Shown: one piece after another, positions 26,431-36,597 of the stretch
Layout of the letters: the number at the start of each line of letters is the position of its first letter
Position numbering within the stretch: the stretch's first letter is position 1
The notes under the pieces: generated by a model
Told to the model about the DNA's origin: nothing
Databases searched by the model: none
Seen by the model: only the letters and a program-made list of their open reading frames with translations
Translations under genes and position numbers: made by a program
Assembly: GCA_022836915.1 (NCBI GenBank)
Contig: CP094668.1
Span: forward strand, 5,270,001-5,334,000
Direction: 5' to 3'
Origin: Paenibacillus sp. OVF10
Lineage (GTDB): Bacteria; Bacillota; Bacilli; Paenibacillales; Paenibacillaceae
Length of the DNA: 64,000 nucleotides

Positions 26431-27468
26431 TTATTCTTCTACAACACCAAGAGCTTTATTTTTCTCCTTAAAGCGACTGTTATGGGAAGAAACATAAGCC
26501 ACTTTTTCCGCTTCAGGGTCCATGTAAAGCTTTGCACTGTTTACCGCTAGGGCTGCATCAGTAAAAGTACCCGCAATCAGATACAGTTTGCTACCATAAT
26601 CTACAAAGTCACCCGCGGCAAAAACACCAGGAATATTGGTCTGTAATCTCTCCGTTGTAGTGACATGCCATTCGCCAAGATCAAGTCCCCAATCCCGGAT
26701 TGGACCAAAGTCACTCTTCATGCCGTGGTTTACAATGACAGCATCGACTTCAAGCAGTTCAGTTTCACCTGTGTCCACGTGTGAGATGGTCACCTGTTCA
26801 ATCACATCACCACTCATACTATGCAGTGTCTCTACCGCGTAAGGTGTACGAACATCTACAGAGGATTCTCTCATACGCAGTACATTACGCTCCAACCCGC
26901 CAAAGCGGTCACGACGATGCACAACCGTAACTTGCTCTGCCAGAGCTTCCAATTCATTCGCCCAGTCCACAGCAGAGTCGCCTCCACCCGAGATCAGCAC
27001 GCGTTTACCGCGGAATGGTTCTAGTTCCTGCACGGTATAGTGCAGATTGCTAACCTCGTAACGGTCTGCACCTTCAAGCTCCAGCTTGGCCATTTTATAT
27101 ATACCATATCCGATTGCCATAATGACGGTACGTGTCCAGTGTTGCTCACCTGTTGCAGAAGTTAACAGAATTGTGCCATCAGGTTGACGCTCGAATCCTT
27201 CGATCTGTTGTTCAAATACGAGGGTAGGCTCAAAAGTTCTTGCCTGTTCTTCCAATTGTTTGATCAGATCTTCACACAGAATTGGCGTCACACCCCCGAC
27301 ATCCCAGATCATTTTCTCCGGATAAAAGAGCATGCGACCTCCCAATCTGTCACGTGCCTCAATCAACTTGGTCTTCATATCTCGCATGCCGCTATAAAAG
27401 GCAGAGTACATACCCGCAGGGCCACCGCCGATAATGGTTACATCATAAAGTTCCAACTGCTGATTCAT
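26431..27468 (-). CDS. ferredoxin/flavodoxin-NADP+ reductase, YumC/YcgT type
   Basis: 345-residue thioredoxin-reductase-like flavoprotein: FAD site [25 protein letters not shown] site [20 protein letters not shown] and [10 protein letters not shown], second FAD motif [20 protein letters not shown]. The thioredoxin-reductase CxxC is absent, which fits this reductase family. A Fur-box-like site lies 44 bases upstream and the next genes are siderophore-related, so a role in supplying electrons for iron release is likely (B. subtilis ycgT is also Fur-regulated). Confidence 0.85.
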
Positions 27469-27511: not shown

Positions 27512-27532
27512 TGATATCGATTCTCATTATCA
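27512..27532. promoter_or_regulatory. Fur box upstream of the reductase gene
   Basis: TGATATCGATTCTCATTATC plus A fits the inverted TGATAAT-ATTATCA pattern; the right half (CATTATCA) is exact and the left half is imperfect. Confidence 0.65.
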
Positions 27533-27627: not shown

Positions 27628-28650
27628 CTATTGCGCTCTTGGAGCCGCCAACAGCTTTTCAACGACAAAATCAAGTTGTTTATTAATTGAATAGATATCC
27701 GAATAGTAGAAGAAATCAAAATCAATCTCAATTAGGCGACCTTCTTTAACAGCCGGGATGCTACTCCATATTGGATCATCCGTAAGGTTATCTGCCCCTT
27801 CATACACCGAACGAAACACGTAGTCACCGATATATTCAGGCAGTACTTCCATGGATAGATTGGAGCCTCCAGCTTCCGAAACTACATCAATTTTCTTTTG
27901 TACCACTTCAGGTGCTTTCATCCCCAAGTATTCATATAGTGCCTGAGATCCTCGGCCATATTGCTTGCTCTCTACAACGACCATACCTTTCAAACCGCCC
28001 TCAACAATGGAAACCGTTTTGTCCAATATGCCTGCATCTGCTAGTGTTTGCTTACTCTCTTCGACTTTGCTATTGAGATTATTGATTAATGTCTCAGCTT
28101 CCTGCTCTTTGCCAAAAATACTCGCTATACTCTGGAGTCTTTCTTCTGTTGTCATTTTCTCGTATGGAATATATACCGTAGGTGCGATATCCTTTAACAA
28201 CGTATACGTCTCTTCTGAAGGAACAATGATCAGATCCGGATCAAGGTCAATGACAGCTTCAGGATTCGGTTCGAACCAGGTGCCTAGTGAATTTACACCT
28301 TCAAGCTCACTCTTGTAGGCAGCCCCGTTGAATACTTCAGATGTAGCAATTGGCTTAATTCCAAGCGCAACGACGTCTCCCTGGAGATATAGTACAACAA
28401 CCCGTTTAGGATTTGCTGGAACAACTACGTCACCCTTAACCGTGGAGACCGTGCGTGTTTCATTGTCTTTGTTCGTCTGGCTTCCTGTGTCTGATGATAC
28501 TGCCGTACTGCTGTTATTGTTGGAACTGGCACCCGTTCCTTCGCCAGCTGCTGGTGTTGTTGCTGTACCTGAAGAGCAGGCTGCGAGGAGCATCGTTATG
28601 CTCAATAATGCAACCATAATCATACTGGAACTTGTTTTTCTTCTTTTCAT
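27628..28650 (-). CDS. iron-siderophore ABC transporter substrate-binding lipoprotein (copy 1, nested frame)
   Basis: Internal ATG at 28650, 9 bases after GGAGGG. 340 residues: lipoprotein signal MKRRKTSSSMIMVALLSITM with lipobox LLAAC (Cys25), an S/T/N/G-rich linker, then a FecB/FeuA-type binding domain (VVVPANPKRVVVLYLQGDVV, DLIIVPSEETYTLLKDIAPT, GRGSQALYEYLGMKAPE). It would capture ferric siderophore outside the membrane. It has its own Fur box (28676-28696), so it is probably expressed as a separate lipoprotein as well. No permease or ATPase gene is adjacent. Confidence 0.8.
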   Translation of the reverse strand: MKRRKTSSSMIMVALLSITMLLAACSSGTATTPAAGEGTGASSNNNSSTAVSSDTGSQTNKDNETRTVSTVKGDVVVPANPKRVVVLYLQGDVVALGIKPIATSEVFNGAAYKSELEGVNSLGTWFEPNPEAVIDLDPDLIIVPSEETYTLLKDIAPTVYIPYEKMTTEERLQSIASIFGKEQEAETLINNLNSKVEESKQTLADAGILDKTVSIVEGGLKGMVVVESKQYGRGSQALYEYLGMKAPEVVQKKIDVVSEAGGSNLSMEVLPEYIGDYVFRSVYEGADNLTDDPIWSSIPAVKEGRLIEIDFDFFYYSDIYSINKQLDFVVEKLLAAPRAQ

Positions 28651-29604
28651 TGGTGTAGACCCTCCGTCTATATATTGATAATGATTCTCATAATCAATAT
28701 ATCCCGACTTCCATCTTCGGCCAATGGACGATTCAGAGATTACCAATGGACGATCCTCTGTTCTCGCTTCTTCTCTCATCTTTCGTTGATACTGTATCGG
28801 AGAGATCCCCACATGTTTTTTGAAGATACGACTAAAATAATACACATCCGAATAACCCACTTCTGCTGCAATTTCACTCAGCGTTGCATCAGATCGGACA
28901 AGCAGATTGCGAGCCTTAGCGATTCGGGTCTGAATTAAATAATCAATGGGACTGTGACCCGTCTGTCGTTTGAATTGCATGGATAAATGACGGGAGCTGT
29001 AGTTGAATTGTTCAGCCAGGAAATCAAGCGTGACCTGTTCCCTATAATGGTTCTGTATATAACGAAGTGTTTGTTTCACCGGGTCAGCAAGCTCTGTTTT
29101 GATCTCCTGCTCTGCCAACTGAACCATCATTTCATGAATGAATTGGTAAAATAAACTTTTGGTATGAAGCAGATCCAGACTCCCAGATTGAATCCATGCA
29201 CCCTCAAGCTCATCAAGGTAACGTAACAACCCCAGCGGACTGCCCGGTGCAAATCCATATTGCAAAGAGAACGGCGCAACTTCCGGCTGTGCCAATAACC
29301 ACTTTTTACGAGAACTAGGAAAGGCAAGGAATGCTCTGTAATAGAGCAGAATATATTCGAAATCTTCGTTGGTTTGGATATCCAGTGAAGATCCTTTCGC
29401 CCCATGAAGCATGTAAAACCGCTCTGCCTTGTATGTTTGTCCATCCAACTGAAGCACAGCCGATCCTCGAATCGTATATATAAAACCATTTGCCGGAAGT
29501 ATGTAGGAACTCATTTGTGCCCCTGCCTCCATAACGATTCGGCGTATATCCAGAACCTTAACAGCGGCATGATTCCAGCATTTCATCTGTTCGTCTAATT
29601 GCAT
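27628..29604 (-). CDS. AraC-family regulator in frame with a siderophore-binding lipoprotein (copy 1)
   Basis: One 658-codon frame. Residues 1-318 are an AraC regulator: sensor domain (NGFIYTIRGSAVLQLDG), then helix-turn-helix pairs (VTLDFLAEQFNYSSRHLSMQ; LSEIAAEVGYSDVYYFSRIF). Without a stop the frame passes through IDYENHYQYIDGGSTP, which is encoded by a Fur box and a GGAGGG ribosome site, into a complete lipoprotein starting at 28650. B. subtilis Btr (YbbB) is a known AraC plus bacillibactin-binding fusion, but it lacks an export signal. The ORF could make a fusion, or the stop may have been lost. ATG at 29604 follows GGAGAG. Confidence 0.75.
   Translation of the reverse strand: MQLDEQMKCWNHAAVKVLDIRRIVMEAGAQMSSYILPANGFIYTIRGSAVLQLDGQTYKAERFYMLHGAKGSSLDIQTNEDFEYILLYYRAFLAFPSSRKKWLLAQPEVAPFSLQYGFAPGSPLGLLRYLDELEGAWIQSGSLDLLHTKSLFYQFIHEMMVQLAEQEIKTELADPVKQTLRYIQNHYREQVTLDFLAEQFNYSSRHLSMQFKRQTGHSPIDYLIQTRIAKARNLLVRSDATLSEIAAEVGYSDVYYFSRIFKKHVGISPIQYQRKMREEARTEDRPLVISESSIGRRWKSGYIDYENHYQYIDGGSTPMKRRKTSSSMIMVALLSITMLLAACSSGTATTPAAGEGTGASSNNNSSTAVSSDTGSQTNKDNETRTVSTVKGDVVVPANPKRVVVLYLQGDVVALGIKPIATSEVFNGAAYKSELEGVNSLGTWFEPNPEAVIDLDPDLIIVPSEETYTLLKDIAPTVYIPYEKMTTEERLQSIASIFGKEQEAETLINNLNSKVEESKQTLADAGILDKTVSIVEGGLKGMVVVESKQYGRGSQALYEYLGMKAPEVVQKKIDVVSEAGGSNLSMEVLPEYIGDYVFRSVYEGADNLTDDPIWSSIPAVKEGRLIEIDFDFFYYSDIYSINKQLDFVVEKLLAAPRAQ
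28676..28696. promoter_or_regulatory. Fur box inside the AraC/lipoprotein frame (copy 1)
   Basis: TGATAATGATTCTCATAATC plus A is an almost perfect inverted repeat, 26 bases before the internal lipoprotein ATG. A weak sigma-A pair TTGGCC-N17-TATATT on the minus strand lies just upstream. Confidence 0.75.
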
Positions 29605-29720
29605 CGATTACTCTCCAATCCCAACCTCACCCGGAATAAAGGCCTTACAAGGTCATCATTCTGCCACACATCCGATAACATATGCGTAGCAGAGGTTCAC
29701 TAATGTACCTATATTATAAA

Positions 29721-29741
29721 TGATAATAATTTTCATTATCA
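29721..29741. promoter_or_regulatory. Fur box upstream of AraC/lipoprotein copy 1
   Basis: TGATAATAATTTTCATTATC plus A, an inverted repeat of TGATAAT type, about 117 bases before the ATG at 29604. Confidence 0.7.
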
Positions 29742-29792
29742 ACTGTAATTTAGAGTGGAATTGGATTTCATCTCATCCATCACTTGTTACGC

Positions 29793-30797
29793 TTATTTTG
29801 GTTCAGAAATCTTCGTAAACCACGCGGCCAATTCCTCTGTTTGATCCAATGTTGCAATCGGGTCAAAGTACCATGAACGATCCGGGCTCCAGATAAACAC
29901 ACGATCATTTTTAACCGCATCCAGTGAACTCCAGACCGGTTTCGATTTCAACTCTTCCAGGGTCAGATTATCTGCTGTTAGAATGATGTAGTCTCCGGCA
30001 AATTCAGGAATCGCTTCCGATGAAACTTCAACCAGTTGATCCTTCATTAAAATCTCTTTTTTATCTGCAGGAGGATTCAAACCAAGCGCGCTATAGACTG
30101 CCTGACCTCCCCGACCAAAATTATCACCAAAGGCCAACGGTGCTTTATCATAGAACTGCATGACCGACACCTCGGCCTGCGAATCAATCGCCTCATGAAC
30201 GCGCTTCTTGGCATCTGCAATTCTTGCGTCATAATCGGCTAACCATGCCTCAGATTCTTTTTCTTTATTTAGCACTTCACCGAAATAGGCAATTTCTTCG
30301 TGGGTGTTTTTCAATTCACCATAAGGTACAACCAAGGTAGGTGCAATTTTGCTAAAGGAATCAAATAAATCAGGATTACCTGTCACAATGAGATCCGGTT
30401 CAAGTTCCAACACCTTTTCGAGAGAAATGGTTTCATATTCGCCAATATTTTGCACACCATCAAGTGATTCGATAAAATAAGGATTTTTCAGGTTCATCTC
30501 CGGTGTACCCACAGGTTTGATTCCCAGGGCGATCAGACTTCCCAAATACAAGTCAACCACAATCCGTTTAGGTTCAGCAGGGATTGTAATATCTCCCTTC
30601 ACCGTTGAAATTGTACGTGGTTCAGATGTTTTGGTTTGATTATCCGCTGTTACTGTGTTTGTGGAACTTGATGCACTTTTGCTTCCCGATGCATCCCCGC
30701 TTGAATTGCTGGCAACACCTGTAGAGCAGGCACTCAGCAGTAACGTAAGACTTAATAGAATACTAAGCAACATTCCCGTTCTTGTCTGTCTGTTCAT
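29793..30797 (-). CDS. iron-siderophore ABC transporter substrate-binding lipoprotein (copy 2, nested frame)
   Basis: Internal ATG at 30797 after GGAGGG. 334 residues: signal MNRQTRTGMLLSILLSLTLL with lipobox LLSAC (Cys24), S/T-rich linker, then a FecB-type domain (ITIPAEPKRIVVDLYLGSLI, DLIVTGNPDLFDSFSKIAPT, GRGGQAVYSALGLNPP). It resembles the copy 1 lipoprotein but is clearly diverged, so the two probably bind different ferric siderophores. The permease partner is not in the window. Confidence 0.8.
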   Translation of the reverse strand: MNRQTRTGMLLSILLSLTLLLSACSTGVASNSSGDASGSKSASSSTNTVTADNQTKTSEPRTISTVKGDITIPAEPKRIVVDLYLGSLIALGIKPVGTPEMNLKNPYFIESLDGVQNIGEYETISLEKVLELEPDLIVTGNPDLFDSFSKIAPTLVVPYGELKNTHEEIAYFGEVLNKEKESEAWLADYDARIADAKKRVHEAIDSQAEVSVMQFYDKAPLAFGDNFGRGGQAVYSALGLNPPADKKEILMKDQLVEVSSEAIPEFAGDYIILTADNLTLEELKSKPVWSSLDAVKNDRVFIWSPDRSWYFDPIATLDQTEELAAWFTKISEPK

Positions 30798-31754
30798 ATT
30801 TATTGACCCTCCGTGTTTATATTGATAATGATTATCACCATCAGTATAAACATACCTTTCACTTCCACCTCTGAAAATGTCATTTCGCGCCACACCTGAT
30901 GTCAGATCAGGCCAATTTAGGGGTGCTGAGGTCTTTTCTTTAAATTGCAGAGGAGAAAGACCTGTATGTTTCTTGAACAAACGCCCCAAATAATATCCAT
31001 CCGGATAACCGATTCCTACGGCGATCTCATCCAACGTGGCGTCCGTTTGCAGCAACATCTCCTTGGCTTTGAACAAACGAAACTGAATCAGATAATCGAT
31101 GGGACTGGTTCCAGTCGACTGTTTGAACTTGCGTGACAAACTTCTTGGGCTGGTGCCGATCATTTCTGCCAAAACATGAAGTGTAAGTGGCTGGGTGTAG
31201 GAAGACTCTACAATTTCAATGACTTTGCTGACCTGATCCTTGATACTTGGATAACGATTGGATATACGAGGAATCTGTGATGAGATCTGCTCCACAAATG
31301 CATAGAACAAACTCTTGGCCTGAAAGTGCTGGATAGGGTTCTTTTGATCCCACAAAAAGTGCATCTGTTTCAATTGCTCATATAGAATGGTTGGCATATC
31401 GGGGGTAAAGCCATAGTTCATTTGGAACGGATTGATACGCTCCATTAACCTTCCCAGATCGTTTCTCCCTCCACTAGGCAGGTTTGCTTTGTACATCAAG
31501 TAATATAGGCGCAATCCGGATTCACCTGCTTGAATCACCAACTTACTCCCTTTTCCCCCATGGAAAATATAAAAGCGACTCACTTCATATGTTTGGTTGT
31601 CAATCGTTACTTCAGCGTCACCCTGAATGGTGAGTACAAAGGTACTTGTCGGAAATTTGTATTTCATCTTTTCATATGCCTCTAATTCCATGTAACGGAT
31701 ATCTGTTATGCTCACCGCAGCATAGTTCCAGAGGATATAATAATCATTCCACAT
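29793..31754 (-). CDS. AraC-family regulator in frame with a siderophore-binding lipoprotein (copy 2)
   Basis: Same layout as copy 1. About 653 codons from the ATG at 31754 (MWNDYYILWNY): AraC part (LTLHVLAEMIGTSPRSLSRK; LDEIAVGIGYPDGYYLGRLF), then TDGDNHYQYKHGGSIN, encoded by a Fur box and GGAGGG, then a lipoprotein beginning at 30797. The AraC part is again about 319 codons. Caution: at the C run 30920-30923 one extra C would create a TGA five codons later, giving a normal separate AraC protein; that error type is common in this window. The frame is open to 31823, but that region overlaps a Fur box. Confidence 0.72.
   Translation of the reverse strand: MWNDYYILWNYAAVSITDIRYMELEAYEKMKYKFPTSTFVLTIQGDAEVTIDNQTYEVSRFYIFHGGKGSKLVIQAGESGLRLYYLMYKANLPSGGRNDLGRLMERINPFQMNYGFTPDMPTILYEQLKQMHFLWDQKNPIQHFQAKSLFYAFVEQISSQIPRISNRYPSIKDQVSKVIEIVESSYTQPLTLHVLAEMIGTSPRSLSRKFKQSTGTSPIDYLIQFRLFKAKEMLLQTDATLDEIAVGIGYPDGYYLGRLFKKHTGLSPLQFKEKTSAPLNWPDLTSGVARNDIFRGGSERYVYTDGDNHYQYKHGGSINMNRQTRTGMLLSILLSLTLLLSACSTGVASNSSGDASGSKSASSSTNTVTADNQTKTSEPRTISTVKGDITIPAEPKRIVVDLYLGSLIALGIKPVGTPEMNLKNPYFIESLDGVQNIGEYETISLEKVLELEPDLIVTGNPDLFDSFSKIAPTLVVPYGELKNTHEEIAYFGEVLNKEKESEAWLADYDARIADAKKRVHEAIDSQAEVSVMQFYDKAPLAFGDNFGRGGQAVYSALGLNPPADKKEILMKDQLVEVSSEAIPEFAGDYIILTADNLTLEELKSKPVWSSLDAVKNDRVFIWSPDRSWYFDPIATLDQTEELAAWFTKISEPK
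30823..30837. promoter_or_regulatory. consensus Fur box inside the AraC/lipoprotein frame (copy 2)
   Basis: TGATAATGATTATCA, an exact 7-1-7 inverted repeat, 25 bases before the internal lipoprotein ATG at 30797. Confidence 0.85.
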
Positions 31755-31807
31755 TTTACTAACCCATCTCCGTCTACATAAATTGTGTCTGTACTCTACG
31801 CACTTAT

Positions 31808-31822
31808 TGATAACCATTATCA
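31808..31822. promoter_or_regulatory. Fur box upstream of AraC/lipoprotein copy 2
   Basis: TGATAACCATTATCA, a 7-1-7 inverted repeat with one mismatch, 53 bases before the ATG at 31754. Confidence 0.75.
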
Positions 31823-31958
31823 ATTATTATGATGAAGTACGCAATACAACCGATGTAAATGAATCCATTCAGACAAAAAAAGAGCTATTCAAATCCTTCT
31901 CTTAACATCCGATATATGTAAATAGAACCATGATAAAGAAAGAAGGAGAACAGAGGAT

Positions 31959-34259: not shown

Positions 34260-35066
34260 TCAGCTTACCTTATGCTCAATTCTCAGCTTGTCAGCAACCA
34301 TCGCAATGAACTCACTATTTGTTGGTTTCGACTTACTGATGTTGATCGTGTAACCAAACAAGTGACTGATGCTGTCGATGTTACCGCGAGTCCATGCCAC
34401 TTCAATGGCATGACGAATCGCACGTTCGACGCGGGACGGCGTCGTTTTGAATTTTTCGGCAATCGCCGGATACAGTGTTTTGGTGATGGCTCCCAAAATT
34501 TCGATATTGTTATACACCATCGTAATGGCTTCGCGCAAATACTGATATCCCTTAATATGCGCAGGTACACCGATTTCATGTATGATGGACGTAATGCTTG
34601 CATCCAGATTTTTGTGTTTGCCCATTGGCACAACATTGGATTTCATGAACATGGATGAACCGCTGCTTGTGGACATCGCGGTCTGTGTTCCAACCAGTTG
34701 ACGCACACGATTCGCAAGCACTTCCATGTCAAATGGCTTGAGAATATAATAAGAAGCTCCGAGTTGCACGGCACGCTGTGTGATATTCTCTTGTCCGAAT
34801 GCCGTAAGCATAATGACTTTAGGCTGTGGAGACAGGTTCAGGTTGCGCAAGCGCTCAAGCACACCCAGACCGTCCAGATGCGGCATGATAATATCCAGAA
34901 TCAATACATCCGGCACATCCCGAGTTTGCTCCAGCAATTGCAGTACTTCTTCTCCATTGTATGCAATACCGGTTACTTCCATATCTTCCTGCTCAGATAT
35001 ATATTCGGCAAGCAAATTCGTAAATTCACGATTATCATCGGCCAGCAATACCTCAATTTTTTGCAA
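34260..35066 (-). CDS. spo0A: Spo0A, master regulator of sporulation
   Basis: Response regulator at the end of the sporulation phosphorelay. 268 residues: receiver domain with acidic pair ADDN (10-12), phosphorylated Asp58 ([13 protein letters not shown]), conserved Thr (VIMLTAFGQ) and Lys (YYILKPFD), then the DNA-binding effector domain ([41 protein letters not shown]). The frame is open to 35105, but the TTG at 35066, 8 bases after AAAGGAGG, gives the family start ([11 protein letters not shown]). It follows spoIVB, as in B. subtilis. Confidence 0.95.
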
Positions 35067-35123
35067 AACGGTATCCTCCTTTAAATTAAACATCGTTTCG
35101 TACATTTCCTTACAGGTTAAATT

Positions 35124-35240: not shown

Positions 35241-35281
35241 AAAAAGAACCTCAGGGCTGTTTAACCAGCCTTGAGGTTCTT
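35240..35281 (-). terminator. terminator overlapping the 3' end of spoIVB
   Basis: AAGAACCTCAGGGCTG (35244-35259) pairs with CAGCCTTGAGGTTCTT (35266-35281); minus-strand T run follows. The spoIVB stop codon lies in the loop. The T run merges with a Spo0A box at 35234-35240. Confidence 0.9.
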
Positions 35282-36597
35282 ATCGTTTTCCTTTTTCATC
35301 ATCACACCAGCATCTTGTAACATCCATTCAATGAAGCAACCGTAACCCGATTTTGGATCATTCACGAATACATGAGTAACTGCACCGATCAACTTACCAT
35401 TTTGTACAATGGGGCTGCCACTCATCCCTTGAACGATACCTCCGGTCTTATCCAGCAGTTTCGGGTCCGTGATTCGAAGTACAAGACCTTTTGTTGCTGG
35501 CTCGGTTTGATCTGCCACATGAACAATGTCAATCGAGAAGCGTTCAACTTGTTGGCCGTCAACCACGGTAAGTATTTCGGCCGGTCCTTCTTTGACTTCA
35601 TGAGAAAAAGCGACGGGAATACCTTTCGAATACAGACTGTGCTCAGGATTTCCGGACATTTTACCAAAGATGCCAAAAGCCGTATTACGTTCAATATTGC
35701 CCAGAATTTTGCTTTCCTTGAGGAAATGAGCACGTTTTTCACCCGGATCACCGGTCTCACTTTTAGAAATGGACGTCACATTAGACTGAACAATCTGACC
35801 ACTACCTACAACAATAGATGTTTGTGTGTTCATATCTGTAATGACATGGCCCAGTGCGCCGTATACGCCCTGATCTGGAGCATAGAAGGTAAGTGTGCCA
35901 ACACCGGCTGCAGAATCACGAATGTACAATCCAAGCCTCCACGCTTGATCCTCGGAGTCATACGCCGGAGTTAATCGTGTCTTCACCGTTTCCTTACCAC
36001 GTTTCAAAACAACATCAATACCTTTTTTACTTTTCCCTGCAAGTTCAACGGCCTCAGAGACACCCGCCACACCATCAAGGCGTTTACCATCCATATGCGT
36101 AATCAGATCTCCGAGCTTAATGCCTGCTGTTTCTCCTGGCGATACACGCTCATCCTGCCCAGAGTGGACCAGATGATGACCTACAACCAGAATGCCTGCC
36201 GATTTAACTTTGACGCCAATCGTTTGACCCCGGGTACAACACGCAAATCCGGTATCACATTCACATGGACTGTTTTGACCGGAATTTTACCCCACAACTT
36301 CAACGTTAATTTGGCATGTCCCGTCTGTTGAGGGTGAAGATGCAAAGGTTGTTGCCTGGTAACATGCATCGCTGCCTGATCATCCAAACCAACGATATCA
36401 GGACGATCTACAACGGCGCTTGAAGCAGCAGGTACAGCGAGCCGGACATCCGCTTGCCTGCCAGCAAACACTTGCAATTCATCCGGCAGTGAAGCATAAC
36501 TTTGCACAGGCTGAATGGCCTGGCTAATCACACAAAGAAAGAAGGCAAATAAAAGACCTAGCAATTTCTTCCTGAGGGGGAATTCAATGGCTGTCAC
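35261..36597 (-). CDS. spoIVB: SpoIVB, forespore serine peptidase (frameshifted in this sequence)
   Basis: S55 peptidase secreted from the forespore that triggers pro-sigma-K processing. Hydrophobic N-terminal helix (KKLLGLLFAFFLCVISQAI), a PDZ region (VSPGETAGIKLGDLITHMDG) and the peptidase domain with GALGHVITDM (His) and GIVQGMSGSPIVQNG (Ser). The frame breaks at the G run 36228-36231; one G restores RVVPGGQTIGVKVKSAGILV. The start is uncertain: GTG at 36597 is downstream of a candidate promoter, while ATG codons at 36690 and 36711 overlap recN. It lies between recN and spo0A. Confidence 0.9.

Follow-up and report, generated by a model that had tools for sequence, protein, structure and literature searches.

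Introduction

Regulators that join an AraC-type part to a siderophore-binding protein (SBP) domain are already a known kind, the described example being Btr (YbbB) of Bacillus subtilis (family model NF049932), in which an AraC helix-turn-helix (HTH) is followed by a Peripla_BP_2 domain in one polypeptide. The SBP domain of Btr has no export signal and acts in the cytoplasm on the imported siderophore; it was reportedly described by Gaballa and Helmann in 2007. Here, we analyzed a stretch of 64,000 nucleotides from Paenibacillus sp. OVF10 (contig CP094668.1, positions 5,270,001 to 5,334,000), referred to below as the window, which covers 5.27–5.33 Mb of a 7.24-Mb single-contig genome. In two tandem open reading frames (ORFs) of the window, copy 1 and copy 2, an AraC regulator and a complete siderophore-binding lipoprotein are joined in frame. 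These genes are another variant of the AraC-SBP regulators and not Btr itself.

The window proteins share with Btr the order of AraC HTH and Peripla_BP_2 and a Fur-controlled iron setting. The Btr-type proteins collected in this study have hardly any linker between HTH and SBP and no signal peptide, whereas the window proteins possess a linker with a control element. The Btr feature of an SBP without export signal is absent from both copies, which carry a signal peptide and a lipobox. The earlier note on this DNA had named Btr as a precedent that differs in just this respect, and the comparison supports it. Membership in the Btr family was rejected because the two proteins reach only 116.7 and 84.2 bits with NF049932, whose curated cut-off is 900 bits, and the best-matching stretch lies in the AraC part.

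With FhuD and ferrichrome-type lipoproteins (PF01497) the window genes share the binding domain, the signal peptide and the lipobox, and the closest solved chains to the binding domain of copy 1 are of the FhuD/ferrichrome-binding protein type (3hxp, 3g9q). The difference is that here an AraC regulator opens a longer frame, within which the promoter and the start of the lipoprotein are located. ToxR and CadC are membrane-spanning one-component regulators; the likeness to them is one of order only (DNA-binding domain, single hydrophobic segment, sensor domain), while the window proteins have an AraC-type domain, a lipobox expected to be cut and a sensor that can be started separately. Internal starts are a known kind.

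In the account of ybbB given in PMC3896406, the gene encodes an AraC protein with a putative FeuA-like substrate-binding domain, is Fur regulated and lies upstream of feuA. A survey of siderophore clusters counted 229 of 6,023 Peripla_BP_2 genes with a second domain, which was HTH_18 in 98.7% of those (PMC13293324); its counts of HTH_18 plus Peripla_BP_2 proteins do not separate exported from cytoplasmic kinds, and the term “signal peptide” does not occur in its main text. We found no description of the present arrangement in the open-access literature searched, most subscription papers lying outside that search. The feature for which we met no precedent there is that a lipoprotein for transport lies, in frame, within its own regulator, together with a whole promoter-operator-start element in the coding linker.

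Results

Organization of the joined genes

Both ORFs (27628-29604 and 29793-31754 in window positions; all features of the pair are on the minus strand) are open at these coordinates, and no stop codon separates the AraC and lipoprotein halves in either copy. Each runs from the AraC part (HTH_18) through a linker and a lipoprotein-type signal peptide to Peripla_BP_2, and each joint holds a promoter-like site, a Fur box, a ribosome site, an ATG, a signal peptide and a lipobox. HTH_18 (PF12833) and Peripla_BP_2 (PF01497) were detected in both proteins above the Pfam cut-offs of 33.6 and 27.5 bits, respectively; signal peptides and lipoboxes were read from the sequence, without a signal-peptide predictor.

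The joined frame of copy 1 (27628..29604, 658 aa) has its AraC DNA-binding domain at 28783..29019 (HTH_18, residues 196-274, 86.4 bits). In the linker, a −35-like TTGGCC (28719..28724), read within I-G-R, stands 17 bp before a −10-like TATATT (28696..28701), read as Y-I with both codons identical in 38/38 copy 1 sequences, and this layout recurs in related joints. The internal Fur box TGAGAATCATTATCA (28676..28690) is read as (Y)-E-N-H-Y-Q and the ribosome site GGAGGG (28660..28665) as G-G, whose Gly codons are likewise identical in 38/38. The internal start is Met319 (28648-28650), from which the signal peptide extends to the lipobox Cys at residue 343 (28576..28650). Peripla_BP_2 follows at 27718..28326 (78.1 bits).

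Copy 2 (29793..31754, 653 aa from the ATG at 31754) is built in the same order, with HTH_18 at 30936..31172 (residues 195-273, 76.9 bits). Its internal promoter was assigned by eye: a possible −10 is TATGTT (30849..30854; two relatives of copy 2 reach a promoter score of 9), an alternative −10 is TATACT (30843-30848), and a possible weak −35 is TTTTCA (30872-30877). The Fur box TGATAATCATTATCA (30823..30837) is read as (G)-D-N-H-Y-Q, its codons being identical in 22–23 of 23 sequences; in the ribosome site GGAGGG (30807..30812) the first Gly codon is kept in 23/23 and the second, GGG, in 21/23. Met320 (30795-30797) starts a signal peptide that reaches the lipobox Cys at residue 343 (30726..30797), and Peripla_BP_2 lies at 29883..30548 (98.2 bits). 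The internal Fur box begins 40 nt before the internal ATG in both copies.

The open frames and Pfam hits bear out what the earlier note had read at this locus, namely an AraC regulator that continues without a stop into a lipoprotein with its own GGAGGG, ATG, signal peptide and lipobox, and the sequence of both joints supports its statement that operator, ribosome site and coding sequence overlap. Two features go beyond that note. A sigma-A-like promoter, also read as protein and weak in copy 2, lies upstream of the internal box, and a further Fur-box-like site precedes each AraC start: a repeat noticed by eye upstream of copy 1 (29721..29741) and the box TGATAACCATTATCA upstream of copy 2 (31808..31822), the best box ahead of that gene matching 13/14.

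The joined frame is conserved in relatives

The window’s assembly is 89% complete, and several of its SBP genes are split in a manner that looks like indel errors; for this reason, the explanation that a sequencing or assembly error fuses two genes needed testing. Matches at 1e-60 or better were found in 62 of 75 genomes of the genus searched. After removal of identical sequences and with the window’s own included, the joint stays in one frame in 38 copy 1 sequences (70–100% identity) and 23 copy 2 sequences (78–100% identity), and no stop was seen between the halves in any of them. Named Paenibacillus records, including P. amylolyticus, P. xylanexedens, P. taichungensis and P. pabuli, also match over the full length, and paralogues with 31–48% identity to copy 1 are joined likewise. 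An alignment of 20 sequences, some of them of one subfamily, shows no variation at the lipobox Ala-Cys, and at least 90% of these sequences keep the internal Met. As relatives from as many different assemblies share the open frame, we rejected assembly error, the probability of which we consider vanishingly small.

Some side observations concern these assemblies (L with a number denotes a locus stretch and G with a number a genome, G000 being that of the window). Split SBP genes of G000 appear as overlapping frames in L119, L125, L126, L129, L132, L133 and L135, and relatives of some are whole (L111 for L126, L097 for L129), which suggests uncorrected indels in the window’s assembly. In the close relatives L071, L072, L073 and L077 (G036, G003, G002 and G070), only binding-domain fragments or nothing turned up at the copy 2 site within the fetched stretch, copy 1 being intact.

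To avoid selecting on the joined frame, 18 chosen genomes were searched with the AraC part alone (alignment A2), the best 141 candidates per genome being scored in most of them. Among 109 matches of the AraC clade (at least 218 bits), 105 belong to frames 600 aa or more in length, a classification by frame length in which the linkers were read for part of the genes. The other four frames (370, 430, 273 and 549 aa) all carry stops or frame breaks; in L243 and L244 (G002) the break falls within the SBP and the joint is still in frame, while L241 and L242 are weighed in the Discussion. L245 (G201), counted in the 105, has a TAA in the N-terminal AraC part with the joint in frame, and L246 (G506), at 204 bits below the threshold, is broken in AraC and before the SBP. 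L247-L252 and L260 combine an AraC near the joined clade with an SBP lacking a signal peptide; L203, L247 and L252 belong to the 105 as genes joined without one. AraC genes of ordinary length (277–293 aa) were listed only at 176 bits or less. In this census we saw no clearly intact gene of the joined AraC clade that ends before a binding domain, L242 being uncertain. The earlier note had proposed aligning homologues and held that a stop between the halves, or homologues that always have separate genes, would undo its reading. The frame proved to be conserved in the 38 and 23 sequences and in many paralogues, and the unjoined genes of the census bear stops or frame breaks, with L242 the least certain.

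A promoter, Fur box and start are kept inside the coding frame

For the buried element we used 181 joined ORFs, i.e., non-identical ORF strings chosen by an AraC hidden Markov model (HMM), an SBP HMM and a lipobox, a few of them cut by locus ends; three joints with Asn at lipobox position −2 were moved into this set by hand from the signal-peptide-less class. Of the internal starts, 180 are ATG codons and one is GTG. Upstream of the start, 180/181 have a Fur box that matches the consensus at 11 or more of 14 positions, compared with 3/3620 control windows of the same genes, a frequency far above chance; the earlier note had described a Fur box read as protein at each joint. Ribosome-site matches of at least 4 bases were found in 174/181. 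The distance from box to ATG takes eight values between 34 and 79 nt, all in one phase (180/180). Standalone lipoproteins, of which 33/44 have a Fur box, are distributed over the three phases as 18, 8 and 7, with a stop between box and ATG in 20/33; their starts were picked by rule, and some may be wrong.

Just before the box, a sigma-A-like promoter with a TTG-type −35, mostly 17 bp of spacing and a TATAYT-type −10 was recognized in a set of 55 nonredundant joints (below 70% linker identity). The promoter score was at least 10 in 42/55 of these joints, compared with 5% of 1650 control windows, and below 10 in about a quarter of them. In the 53 joints with a score of at least 9, the −10 is offset from the box by −5, −11, −14, −17 or −20, always in one phase. 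Promoter, operator and start move by whole codons only. In peptide form the element has the approximate pattern S-S-I-x(7-8)-Y-I, followed by D-N-H-Y-Q-Y and, after that, by G-G and M. The lipobox −1 residue is Ala in 181/181, though the selection rule also admitted Gly and Ser, and the n-region of the signal peptide has a net positive charge in 176/181. Outer Fur boxes were sought within 250 nt around the estimated start. Among the 159 genes whose flank sufficed for this, 123 have one of at least 11/14, the control being 23/181 random windows of the same loci, some of which possibly hold the internal box. A subfamily with another linker (e.g., VNSDNHYQQDTWRVNEM) also keeps the in-frame box and start, as seen in L158 (minus strand; its 478-aa frame is cut by the locus end), L166 and L254.

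Selection acts on both the DNA element and the protein

In the 38 copy 1 sequences, synonymous change (pS) was 0.55–0.57 in the AraC and SBP domains (median 0.56). Over codons 302-315 it was 0.024, the lowest value of 643 codon windows, with 0.00 and 0.06 for the Fur box codons 305-309 and 310-314. The low-pS stretch begins at about codon 285, in the −35 region, and ends at about codon 324, shortly after the start. The 23 copy 2 sequences gave less contrast, with a median of 0.45 and a minimum of 0.08 at codons 299-312. Such a collapse of synonymous change over the buried element indicates that the DNA element is selected while the protein frame passes through it.

The ratio of nonsynonymous to synonymous change (pN/pS) was 0.14–0.31 in the AraC parts (0.18 for HTH_18 of copy 1), showing purifying selection, 0.18 and 0.04 in the signal peptides of copy 1 and copy 2, and 0.49 and 0.38 in the linkers. 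When 20 and 22 linker codons were left to evolve neutrally in a simulation along trees of four-fold sites, stops were expected in 22.3/38 and 12.3/23 sequences, and none was observed. We also considered whether the frame is kept only by constraint on the DNA. This is unlikely, as the linker outside the box is stop-free as well and relatives without a signal peptide keep the frame.

Partner genes of joined and Btr-type regulators

The genomic context was compared in four genomes by frame length (Btr-type 500–620 aa, joined at least 625 aa). A standalone SBP gene lies on the same strand within 3.5 kb of only 1/15 joined genes, whereas Btr-type genes usually have such a separate lipoprotein gene (28/31; Fisher p 3.9e-8). 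On either strand, the number for joined genes rises to 2/15, and in the single same-strand case a Btr-type gene sits between the joined gene and the standalone SBP. The count used 141 of 142 rows, a 130-aa fragment being left out; one broken joined gene and one signal-peptide-less gene were set aside by hand, and a single locus of G428, present at either end of its contig, accounts for two of the Btr rows.

In L237 (window’s family) and in L232 and L233 (another family), the joined gene stands ahead of same-strand permease genes, one or two of which in each stretch were confirmed as FecCD by Pfam. No other same-strand SBP gene was detected in these three stretches, and the joined gene therefore likely supplies the transporter’s binding protein. 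L232 has in addition a divergent Btr-type gene with its lipoprotein. Beside the window pair we found no other binding-protein match.

Four joined genes (L188, L198, L202 and L203) have lost the signal peptide and kept the joined frame with a trace of the Fur-box peptide. All four loci (L227-L230) contain a separate same-strand SBP gene; further genes there are FecCD-permease-like by start and length only, and in L230 an overlapping frame masks that of AraC-SBP in the ORF list. A missing signal peptide next to a separate SBP gene is what would be expected of a full-length protein that works as a regulator, with a signal peptide whose role is to serve the lipoprotein. As soon as the lipoprotein came from another gene, the regulator would be free to drop its export signal.

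Evolution and distribution

Copy 1 and copy 2 share 34% identity, and their SBP halves fall in different supported clades (copy 1 being represented by its 97% relative L011); on these grounds they are old paralogues, and a recent tandem duplication was rejected. In the AraC tree, 33 joined and 3 signal-peptide-less representatives stand on one side of a 100/99 branch and 8 Btr-type genes on the other. This tree is unrooted, its Btr rows sit on long branches, and the near-clade genes L247-L252 and L260 are outside it; L202 was reclassified by hand from Btr-type to signal-peptide-less in the trees. The signal-peptide-less L198, L202 and L203 nest within the joined group, L198 also in the SBP tree. 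A single ancestral joined AraC is thereby supported as far as the AraC tree reaches. The earlier note had taken the tandem pair to suggest duplication of an ancestral joined gene: the ancestral joined AraC stood up to analysis (100/99 branch), and the tandem pair as evidence of duplication did not, given the 34% identity.

The SBP tree gave a different picture, with the halves of joined genes mixed among standalone and Btr-type SBPs. The joined label changes 15 times, at least 11 of these being forced by well-supported branches, and both numbers are too high by up to about 3 since three standalone rows (L005, L126 and L197) are pieces of split joined genes. This suggests repeated exchange of SBP halves among joined, Btr-type and standalone genes. 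The mixing would reflect either capture of different SBPs by the AraC cassette or loss of the AraC half from many genes that now stand alone. A further observation concerns L247 and L252, where a signal-peptide-less AraC-SBP gene is accompanied by an opposite-strand lipoprotein that keeps the in-frame Fur-box peptide (NENCYQ and NENHYQ). Judged by these peptides, each pair looks like a joined gene split in two, with the standalone lipoproteins as relics.

Joined genes with a signal peptide were read in the window’s own family (f1) and in f23, f4 and f20 of the same class. In a phylum-wide sample, the AraC part was matched at 1e-55 or better in 3 of 299 genomes, all three from f1, under this strict threshold and with the best 8 candidates scored per genome.

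Neighboring genes in the window

The siderophore pair sits near putative sporulation genes, which we take to encode a Spo0A-like response regulator (34260-35105, minus strand) and, presumably, a SpoIVB-like peptidase (35261-36094). Downstream of copy 1, at 26431-27468 (minus strand), lies a gene for a pyridine-nucleotide oxidoreductase (Pyr_redox_2) resembling ferredoxin-NADP reductase, with a Fur-box-like site noticed by eye at about 27512-27526. A ferredoxin-NADP reductase is described as being under Fur in B. pumilus (PMC3896406).

Discussion

We propose that one gene gives two products sharing a binding domain: the internal Fur-controlled promoter would yield a transport lipoprotein, and the outer one an AraC sensor of the Btr kind. 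We give this reading a probability of about 0.7. The earlier note had already suggested that a single gene could make a regulator equipped with a sensor domain of its own as well as a lipoprotein, a suggestion that the anatomy of the genes supports. With no stop between the halves, translation of AraC has to continue into the long form, and the complete Fur-type start within the gene allows the lipoprotein to be made on its own. The outer Fur-controlled promoter and the AraC start would thus yield an AraC-SBP regulator of about 655 aa, which would sense the iron-siderophore through its SBP domain and activate uptake genes in a Btr-like manner. The internal sigma-A promoter, Fur box, ribosome site and ATG would yield the SBP codons alone, as an exported lipoprotein serving FecCD-type permeases. 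Iron starvation would open both promoters; the lipoprotein would capture the siderophore and the long form would activate with the same specificity, since the shared SBP codons would always give sensor and transporter the same ligand specificity. The sequences show how the genes are built and how widely this is conserved, the selection on the buried DNA, the retention of the frame and the rarity of a partner lipoprotein gene. From them we infer that both products accumulate and that the regulator binds a siderophore; any assignment of its target promoters, or of a place for the long form, would likewise be an inference.

Several observations weigh against this proposal or narrow what our counts can carry. 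Regarding the samples, the 181 joined ORFs were selected as being in frame with a lipobox and so provide no independent test of the frame, the 18 census genomes were picked because joined genes were known there, and owing to the shared ancestry of the relatives the constant phase does not stand for many independent events. Regarding the element, the internal Fur box is not recognizable in the joined gene L201, seven of the 181 joined ORFs have no ribosome site in the scanned range, and copy 2 has a weak −35, a smaller drop in pS overall and no lowering of pS at codons 310-314. The linker, or a part of it, could be kept as a tail of AraC. In the census, L241 (G002) has a TAA in the AraC part and a frame broken in the joint, which has lost both the internal start and the signal peptide; the related L106, L113 and L205 are whole. 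L242 (G324) has a stop near the AraC N-terminus and a frame that closes soon after the HTH, and the remainder of the fetched stretch gave no SBP. We took L242 as a remnant; it would otherwise be a short stand-alone regulator, and it is the one uncertain case of the census. Beside the window pair there are no permease genes. Finally, a hydrophobic signal peptide in mid-protein could draw the regulator into the membrane or cause its cleavage, so that a soluble, Btr-like mode of action is not assured.

This last point leads to two other accounts of the long form. It might be a membrane-spanning sensor, with AraC inside, the SBP outside and the signal peptide as an anchor, that senses the siderophore before import while the free lipoprotein is still made. 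The order of DNA-binding domain, flexible linker, hydrophobic helix and binding domain would fit, and the structure model agrees, having two well-modelled domains, a low-confidence linker (283-330) and a helix (327-342) at a mean pLDDT of 79 and a pTM of 0.45; the net positive n-region in 176/181 likewise favors an N-inside orientation. On the other hand, the lipobox Ala at −1 in every joined ORF should invite cleavage, and the anchor seems dispensable, as the signal-peptide-less relatives keep the AraC-SBP frame next to a separate SBP gene. We therefore regard the membrane-spanning sensor as rather unlikely. A related version, in which the same codons serve as binding protein and sensor, the long form spans the membrane and lipoprotein processing decides between regulator and transport lipoprotein, is in our judgment unlikely. 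The long form could also be a polyprotein that, once exported, is cleaved by signal peptidase II at its lipobox into a lipoprotein outside and a membrane-tailed AraC inside, with this cutting, or its blocking by ligand, as the signal. Retention of a lipobox after the signal peptide in joined proteins of deeply diverged subfamilies would suit it, but it leaves the conserved internal promoter, Fur box and ribosome site unexplained, because it does not need them, and the signal-peptide-less joined relatives would have lost the mechanism. We regard the polyprotein as quite doubtful. The structure model does not decide whether the long form would be soluble, membrane-spanning or cut at the lipobox.

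At the other extreme, the two genes could be functionally separate, with an AraC that merely lacks a stop before the next start and a full-length protein that is a by-product. The complete and conserved internal start signals do make the lipoprotein independent of the joined form. Such inertia is difficult to reconcile with the joining of 105/109 AraC-clade matches in 18 genomes, with the absence of stops where neutrality expects them in about half or more of the sequences, and with the survival of the frame after loss of the signal peptide. Moreover, it would require that AraC, which is under purifying selection, be made only as a by-product. We consider it very improbable and retain the proposal of one gene with two products.

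If our reading is true, shared codons would be a simple answer to how a sensor and a transporter keep one ligand specificity while evolving. A promoter, operator, ribosome site and start codon kept in a coding frame over deep divergence are also measurable as such, and two products may be concealed in each of the roughly 650-aa database entries in which AraC and Peripla_BP_2 domains occur together. Were the long form instead to span the membrane, an AraC factor would respond directly to ligand captured outside the cell. The scope of the finding is soil Paenibacillus and some relatives, within the window’s family and three other families of its class. In the survey cited above (PMC13293324), the number of siderophore receptors relative to that of siderophore clusters is reported to be very high in Paenibacillus, and the joined genes may tell which foreign siderophores a strain senses.

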